A stretch of 64,000 nucleotides of DNA, from positions 1-64,000 of the forward strand of contig JAGWUV010000008.1 of the NCBI GenBank assembly GCA_028875875.1, written 5' to 3'. The position numbers were made by a program, and so were the translations under genes. Source of the stretch: Bacteroidota bacterium. Its GTDB lineage: Bacteria > Bacteroidota > Bacteroidia > Chitinophagales > Chitinophagaceae. Shown here piece after piece: positions 34,843 to 35,269 of the stretch (positions are counted from its first letter, which is position 1; each line of letters opens with the position of its first letter). The notes below the pieces were generated by a model. That model had not been told where the DNA came from. It did not search any database and saw only the letters and a program-made list of their open reading frames with translations.

Positions 34843-34934
34843 TTTTGTTCGATATTGCTTCGACCCTTCTTCGGATCGTGTTCGGATCGATCCGAAGACG
34901 ATCCGAACAATGTTCGGAAAAGTATCGAACAAAA
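34843..34934. repeat. 92-bp zero-spacer palindrome with an 11-bp-phased TTCG motif
   Basis: The centre is between 34888 and 34889. Counting outward, 38 of 46 base pairs are Watson-Crick complementary with no loop. The outer arms TTTTGTTCGATA (34843-34854) and TATCGAACAAAA (34923-34934) match perfectly, as does the central 16-mer at 34881-34896. TTCG occurs at 34848, 34859, 34870 and 34881, exactly 11 bases apart, and the mirrored CGAA occurs at 34893, 34904 and 34926. Transcribed from either strand it would form a very long hairpin. It could be a protein-binding array on one helix face, a bidirectional terminator or an extragenic palindromic element. Confidence 0.85.
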
Positions 34935-34992
34935 ATGCTGAAAGACAGGCGGAACAAGCCTTTTAAAATCCTGATCCGAACAATGTAACGGA

Positions 34993-35018: not shown

Positions 35019-35214
35019 GAAGGGGTTGGCTTGGAATTATAGGCTACAGTGAAAGCCAAAAAATAGAGGAGAATTATAGCCAATTCCCCGTTCATCGTCA
35101 AAAAACTTCCTAATCCACAAATTCGGAATCCGAAAATCCTGGTTCGCCCTCCCTTCCTTCTTACTCCCTACATACGCCCTACATAAGCCGTATAGAGTTC
35201 ATGAAAATAACAAA

Positions 35215-35269
35215 GCGTTGATTATCAATACTTAAGTATCCTATAAAAAAAGTAGGATACTCACAACGC
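35215..35269. repeat. Nested hairpin GCGTTG...GTATCCTA / TAGGATAC...CAACGC
   Basis: The inner stem GTATCCTA (35236-35243) pairs with TAGGATAC (35253-35260) around an A-rich 9-nt loop. The outer arms GCGTTG (35215-35220) and CAACGC (35264-35269) are also complementary. It sits between the large palindrome and the folD promoter. Confidence 0.6.

Follow-up and report, generated by a model that had tools for sequence, protein, structure and literature searches.

The question raised by this locus is what a loopless palindrome of 92 bp, built on short cores at 11-bp steps, is doing in the intergenic DNA of a member of the Chitinophagaceae. The window, by which we mean the whole 64,000-nucleotide stretch that was analysed, holds the palindrome between two divergent neighbours separated by 1.07 kb of intergenic DNA: on one side a gene for a TonB-dependent receptor, accompanied by a SusD-like partner, and on the other the tetrahydrofolate dehydrogenase gene folD. 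The initial annotation, made from the letters of the window, had offered three readings: a site for a protein binding along one DNA face, a regulator or organiser of the divergent susC-like operon and folD, and an extragenic palindromic element.

The palindrome is real, and its pairing lies far above that of the shuffled window. We found 38 of 46 positions paired about a single centre, with no mismatch in the outer 12-bp arms or in the central 16-mer (8+8), just as first described, and every TTCG and CGAA core reported was recovered (Table 1); an extra TTCG at 34913, within the palindrome, is off phase. The runner-up among loopless 46+46 palindromes of the window reaches 25 of 46 pairs, and when the entire window was shuffled 30 times with dinucleotides preserved, the best one per shuffle had 24-28. 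Self-identity at lag 11, taken over 77-bp segments, exceeds 0.55 at two places only in the 64 kb, namely the palindrome (0.59) and a second repeat, here called R2 (0.56), the third-best value being 0.47. When lags 7-15 were scanned over 88-bp segments, lag 11 alone exceeded 0.55, with its best places at 34844 (the palindrome) and 35138 (R2).

Table 1. Features of the window palindrome and its repeats (window positions), and genes 3' of DUF6266 in other genomes (positions within the named loci).
Feature	Position	Strand	Basis or remark
Loopless 92-bp palindrome	34843..34934	.	dyad 34888/34889; 38/46 pairs
Left arm, four TTCG cores at 11-bp steps	34848..34884	+	TTCG at 34848, 34859, 34870, 34881; lag-11 peak
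Right arm, inverted cores	34893..34929	-	CGAA at 34893, 34904, 34926
P repeat, dispersed, 13 genomic copies	34843..34988	+	genome-wide search and alignment
P tail	34935..34988	+	alignment; ATG...stop frame incidental
R2, second dispersed 11-bp-periodic repeat	35148..35260	+	14 copies; second-best lag-11 peak of the window
DUF5675 or small hydrophobic-looking ORFs 3' of DUF6266	L330:1896-2297, L331:2040-2486, L351:1941-2345, L334:1989-2372, L341:2129-2512		

The palindrome forms the first ~60% of a longer, non-coding repeat of ~146 bp, here called P, in which it is followed by a tail that ends in GATCCGAACAATGTAA in the window copy and in GATCCGAACAATGTAG (...GTAG) in most copies. The genome search for which the initial annotation had asked found 13 copies of P, one interrupted by a contig end and one lacking 11 bp, and in this respect the extragenic palindromic element was borne out. 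In the alignment of 12 copies (the one cut by the contig end was left out), columns of the palindrome have a mean pairwise diversity of 0.10 and those of the tail one of 0.16, and directly outside P the value is 0.67 upstream and 0.51 downstream; since it is low inside and high just outside, the ends of P are common to the copies. The flanks are mostly unrelated, save for other repeats and a few longer stretches in common, and between copies the cores are hardly better conserved than the spacers (0.081 vs. 0.112). The copies on contigs C36 and C40 (L079, L081) lie in a larger duplicated segment that matches at 94% over at least 735 bp. Frames of ~70-115 aa overlap several of the copies, and no copy lies inside anything judged a gene. 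A coding repeat, that is, a small gene in P with an open frame running to MLK...RTM-stop, has next to no probability: most of the 12 aligned copies leave the frame open, but diversity at the three codon positions (0.111/0.232/0.150) does not make the third the most variable, the C14 copy has a 1-bp frameshift and the C40 copy an 11-bp deletion, the stop is lost in the C36 and C40 copies, and there is no common start at the upstream end of P.

The position of the window copy in a divergent intergenic region is what speaks for a local operator or organiser of the receptor operon and folD. The 12 other copies adjoin unrelated genes, however, and the distance from P to the gene start varies, whereas arrays at many of the DUF6266 genes considered below keep to a narrow range. 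The local reading is largely refuted; we give it only a very small probability, and P is probably inert for susC and folD. The initial annotation had also held that many copies would make this an ordinary repeat family rather than a local site; the 13 copies do dispose of the local site, yet as a repeat family P is out of the ordinary. A gene that by eye resembles type II-C cas9 starts 332 bp beyond one P copy (L071:4001-4835); for its 119-aa contig-end fragment Pfam gave no match.

Eleven base pairs is the pitch of A-form RNA, and P might act as a transcribed hairpin, whether as an attenuator, a stability hairpin or a small RNA. Folding of the single RNA strand, also called for at the outset, gives -47.8 kcal/mol against a shuffle mean of -21.8 (z -8.8), a very stable structure. 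Among the 12 copies, however, a two-sided change occurs at just one of the 38 predicted pairs, which speaks against a conserved RNA structure in P, and at the gathering score Rfam 15 finds only a tRNA in the 64-kb window, with no family matching at P. With the data on orientation and promoter position given below, an RNA role appears improbable.

A plain selfish or inert repeat of the MITE, REP or ERIC-like kind, with its hairpin recognised by a transposase in trans and the link to DUF6266 incidental, is a possible explanation that we consider somewhat unlikely. Thirteen dispersed, non-coding, palindromic copies with sharp ends argue for it. Against it, the Y1/RAYT transposase (PF01797) has no match in the source genome, which rules out a RAYT-driven REP as far as an assembly 97.5% complete, from which a RAYT gene might be missed, allows (a control finds the family in 5 of 14 known genomes). 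Outside the 13 copies, matches to P in the genome (E<=10) are only partial, 14-31 bases long, and neither a full-length IS nor any other longer element with the ends of P was found there. Target-site duplication shows no clear excess over permuted flank pairings: for the 12 copies, whose ends can be placed only to within a few bases, 3 to 22 of 60 permuted pairings reach the observed value, depending on the length taken. Such an element would also leave unexplained the exact 11-bp phase, the private cores and the gene linkage described below. The plasmid and phage collections searched with P gave no match. A transposase-like gene, by eye IS3-like, lies close to one P copy (C4; L074).

R2, with CCCTA-type units, lies ~250 bp downstream of the palindrome, and nine of its 14 copies have a P copy no more than a few hundred bp away, with both repeats on one strand and in the order R2-P or P-R2. 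It is a poor palindrome (15 of 33 pairs). One copy, on contig C15 (L082), is 55 bp from a transposase-like gene with an rve domain.

The same architecture recurs in other genomes, and the strict 11-bp phasing noticed in the window is real and not peculiar to it. We scanned the GTDB species genomes for three TTCG and two inverted CGAA, spaced 11 bp apart within each arm and separated by a gap of 5-16; this gave at least 119 stretches; among the matches listed, 108 of 119 are in Bacteroidota by record title and 11 are not, and four of the six non-Bacteroidota stretches among the first 80 lie inside frames of 103-534 aa. The Bacteroidota loci among those first 80, together with the window site, make up the set of 76 sites used below. 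Strict arrays are rare, occurring in three of 296 evenly drawn Bacteroidota genomes, the source genome included (the reversed control pattern occurs in none), and the search for TTCG arrays among relatives that had been recommended ends in a class that recurs sporadically in the phylum. The gap between TTCG and CGAA is 8 in 40 and 9 in 24 of the 76 sites (64 together), and the window palindrome, whose cores are exactly 11 bp apart and inverted about the dyad as in the class as we define it, has the commonest gap of 8. Beyond the searched pattern the next TTCG on the left is found 11 bp away in 52 of the 76 sites, 22 bp in 23, 33 bp in 16, 44 bp in 10 and 55 bp in 7, and at 10, 21 or 32 bp in 0-2; on the right, cores continue at successive 11-bp steps in 23, 35 and 10 of the 76, against 1-4 off phase. 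Because the cores continue at multiples of 11 and hardly ever at 10, 21 or 32, the period is exactly 11 and not 10.5, and this spacing holds over up to five further units. P is one member of this class, sporadic in Bacteroidota, of inverted arrays phased at exactly 11 bp.

The B-DNA helix has 10.5 bp per turn, and sites spaced exactly 11 bp apart therefore drift round it, so that the simple one-face reading of the initial annotation has to be modified and would require a wrapped or untwisted complex. The spacers pair too, with a mean of 0.57 over the 76 sites (0.78 for the window palindrome) and values of 0.33 or less in only 8 of the 76, against 0.33 in a shuffled-spacer control that had a narrower axis range. 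Palindromy beyond the cores is thus the rule, with exceptions. This pairing past the cores at most sites favours both the RNA reading and the MITE/REP reading, and a hairpin-recognising enzyme would explain it at least as well as would a platform of duplex DNA. Orientation relative to neighbouring genes shows no strong preference, with 23 co-directional, 13 convergent and 12 divergent of 81 arrays or, under other ORF rules, 25, 17 and 26, respectively, of 68 with both neighbours; this agrees with a MITE or REP and argues against both a transcribed RNA and a local organiser of the divergent operon.

The array families themselves are not the same from genome to genome, and they change by gain or loss of whole 11-bp units. 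Genome GWE2_42_24 has its own dispersed family (12 copies aligned, with sharp ends and 11-bp indels), as does Pedobacter cryoconitis M2T3, in which the family occupies 11 places, some of them partial, again with sharp ends and exact 11-bp indels. In genome G179, from the source's own family, there are two copies of a 486-bp repeat, of which the palindrome is apparently the better-preserved part. Three relatives of the same family (L087/G006, L088/G030, L089/G015) carry long 11-bp arrays built on GCTT cores, which first surfaced as matches to the reversed control. The same TTCG pattern gave 22 matches in IMG/VR; their gaps spread over 5-16, mostly off 8 and 9, and as viral members of the class they were rejected as chance-like. 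Flanks compared across 44 Bacteroidota genomes have in common only AT-rich and promoter-like k-mers, and intrinsic terminators are not associated with the arrays (5 flanks toward vs. 2 away of 150; for the copies of the source genome, 1 vs. 1 of 24). Several of the P. cryoconitis M2T3 arrays (L269, L274, L278, L280) begin, by eye, right after an apparent intrinsic terminator. The result listings of our literature searches held no description of such an array class.

The arrays are linked to one gene family. Among the best 25 of the 168 Pfam families matched by the 105 ORFs nearest to the arrays at 74 Bacteroidota loci, DUF6266 (PF19781) is the commonest, with five ORFs against three for the next, and there is no transposase, which counts against a plain MITE or REP. 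At those five loci and two more (L216 and L232, the latter with a weak homologue, E 0.0014), the array lies 113, 113, 322, 342, 459, 706 and 113 bp from the DUF6266 gene downstream of it. DUF6266 is present in 19 of 20 array genomes, the exception being C. pinensis YS-16, and in 5 of 59 relatives, two of these five matches being partial; because the 20 genomes were chosen for carrying arrays, the 19 of 20 is not from a random sample, the count being 12 of 13 for those not picked for adjacency of gene and array (the other seven were so picked). Within the 59 relatives, genomes with arrays and genomes with DUF6266 overlap in three (p about 0.006, or 0.01 with G008 counted), in a post hoc test that includes the two partial matches and counts as arrays those with the GCTT core. 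Our literature searches for DUF6266 returned no paper.

The linkage is seen most clearly from the side of the gene. We scored 700 bp upstream of 65 DUF6266 gene groups, derived from 76 of 97 matches and four genes of relatives. Lag-11 self-identity reaches 0.60 upstream in 33 of the 65 (34 with one dropped low-complexity case) and downstream in none; for six other lags pooled the upstream count is 4 of 65, and none of 148 control genes reaches 0.60 at lag 11 (79 from 19 loci of Sphingobacteriaceae and 69 neighbours of DUF6266 genes). The 33 arrays come from 14 of the 20 genomes, and since 18 of them have fewer than three phased TTCG, those 18 were not selected by the search pattern. The cores vary from gene to gene and are shared among related DUF6266 genes. 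Of 45 arrays tested, 23 are more palindromic than most of their unit-order shuffles, and in 15 of these 23 the dyad is placed 106-150 bp before the ATG, a geometry of about -130 that orphan arrays do not keep (6 of 71). In 9 of 26 cases a -7-like TATCTT box, a motif chosen post hoc, precedes the ATG by 20-60 bp; it would place the array upstream of the promoter, an apparent arrangement that argues against the array acting as RNA; the Bacteroidota promoter consensus TTG-N-TANNTTT occurs at 1 of the 26, against a shuffle mean of 2.4. Arrays are absent from both of the DUF6266 genes of G029 and all three of those tested in G361.

In the source genome no DUF6266 gene lies directly downstream of P. 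The only such gene of this genome (C13:18546-19133; L287:4532-5167, minus strand) has no array (upstream lag-11 self-identity 0.41) and no match to P or R2 above chance, and contig C13 carries no copy of either repeat; the plasmid and phage collections searched with its protein gave no matches. Since this gene has no array and stands apart from P and R2, P would be tied to the DUF6266 class by its architecture and by analogy with other genomes.

Array and gene can also be shared as one block. In Sphingobacterium sp. GVS05A, two DUF6266 loci on different contigs (L374 and L378) have 892 bp in common at 89.6%, the homology running from -232, the outer end of the array, exactly to the stop codon, with nothing beyond in the 3.2 kb compared. 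For the between-genome pairs L378/L380, L378/L381 and L344/L352 the homology also stops at the stop codon (+2 to +4); in several more divergent pairs it ends 10-44 bases before it, and in orthologous pairs it continues into shared flanks. The scattered family of P. cryoconitis M2T3 finds its best match among 65 upstream regions in the array of the DUF6266 gene of the same genome (E 7e-7; the next is 0.004), the relation that would be expected between a source locus and its gene-less copies. Directly 3' of DUF6266 in several genomes are DUF5675 proteins or small proteins, hydrophobic by eye, and some of the loci are therefore larger modules. DUF6266 with the genes downstream of it could be a larger, phage-like module.

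Similarity between arrays tracks similarity between the DUF6266 proteins, most for residues 1-40 and least for the fibronectin-like part; among 43 arrays the partial rank correlations are 0.19, 0.14 and 0.09, values reached by 0, 1 and 12 of 500 permutations, respectively. Mere closeness on the DNA could also cause the N-terminus to follow the array. An AlphaFold2 model built on 65 homologues (pLDDT 95) predicts N-terminal strands, then helices and a C-terminal fibronectin type III (Fn3)-like domain, whose best structural match has a Z of 8.9 over 91 residues; whole-protein structure searches, Foldseek included, gave matches spanning residues 111-212 and none outside this domain. The best-kept residues are mostly glycines, with R31, Q45 and W133, among which no catalytic cluster was recognised, and PHROGs and NCBIfam yielded no name of weight for four DUF6266 proteins.

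These observations make P most likely a dispersed, gene-less array. The explanation we prefer, tentatively and at a little short of an even chance, is that it is a gene-less member of a class in which the phased array serves as a protein-binding, oligomerising DNA platform, and whose full form includes DUF6266. We infer binding by a protein, which would take one unit per approximate helical turn and oligomerise, much as ParR does on the parC repeats; DUF6266, through its N-terminal half, is the first candidate for this protein, in the role of binder only. The complete form would be a platform, a promoter and a DUF6266 gene, together a unit of ~0.9 kb that is copied to new places, and P would be an orphan of the class that spread in the source genome. 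It is a further step, and one that we think unlikely though worth stating, to see in array and DUF6266 a new compact mobile or self-propagating unit of Bacteroidota, each private array being recognised by its own DUF6266 protein through the N-terminal half, with P and R2 as non-autonomous offspring; such units would each have a core of their own, a constant 11-bp phase and a dyad about 130 bp before the start codon. These findings lend a testable identity to a recurring and apparently unnamed type of Bacteroidota intergenic DNA, and DUF6266 gains a first lead. With many unrelated cores, one spacing and one gene family, the rule read by the putative protein (spacing, dyad and distance to the promoter) would be separable from the sequence. 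Mobile units and arrays would add a new source of rearrangement to these genomes, and purely regulatory ones would be an unusual promoter architecture.

The ERIC and RU elements, which are not known to have a linked gene family, resemble P in being intergenic repeats of a similar size range. They are described as 100-170 bp long and are said to carry open reading frames, but belong to a different phylum, and the description, as far as it goes, mentions no 11-bp array (PMC2759123). Closer in phylogeny is the BrickBuilt MITE of Porphyromonas gingivalis, likewise a dispersed Bacteroidota element containing short tandem repeats; these are given as 23-nt direct repeats, with IS-like terminal inverted repeats (PMC4596501), whereas P has inverted 11-bp units and no IS partner was found for it, nor does it have the ends in common with a full-length IS of the genome that would mark a MITE. 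The 77-bp inverted repeat of the P. gingivalis capsule locus, also long, imperfect and from a Bacteroidota species, lies upstream of an operon and is reported to be bound preferentially by HU protein; it is described there as one site, unlike the dispersed P (PMC3969353).

The REP/RAYT and REPIN systems share with P the dispersed, palindromic, intergenic repeats (PMC2817692, PMC3733652, PMC3116915), and in them, too, the repeat found at a gene locus may be akin to those dispersed elsewhere, a relation also seen in P. cryoconitis. REP palindromes are given as 20-40 bp (PMC3733652), against 92-146 bp for P, which is strictly 11-bp phased and comes from a genome in which no RAYT gene was found; the gene linked to the arrays is predicted to have an Fn3-like C-terminus, with no recognised catalytic cluster. 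The block that palindrome and gene form together suggests a comparison with integron attC sites, which are recombined in folded form by IntI in cassette arrays, whereas the loci with array and DUF6266 are dispersed, with the palindrome 5' of the gene. The likeness to the plasmid centromere parC of R1, with its 11-bp repeats bound by ParR (PMC9426499), lies in the short tandem repeats of about one helical turn, placed upstream of a gene and varying in sequence between systems; it differs in that the arrays described here are inverted about a dyad, dispersed and often gene-less.
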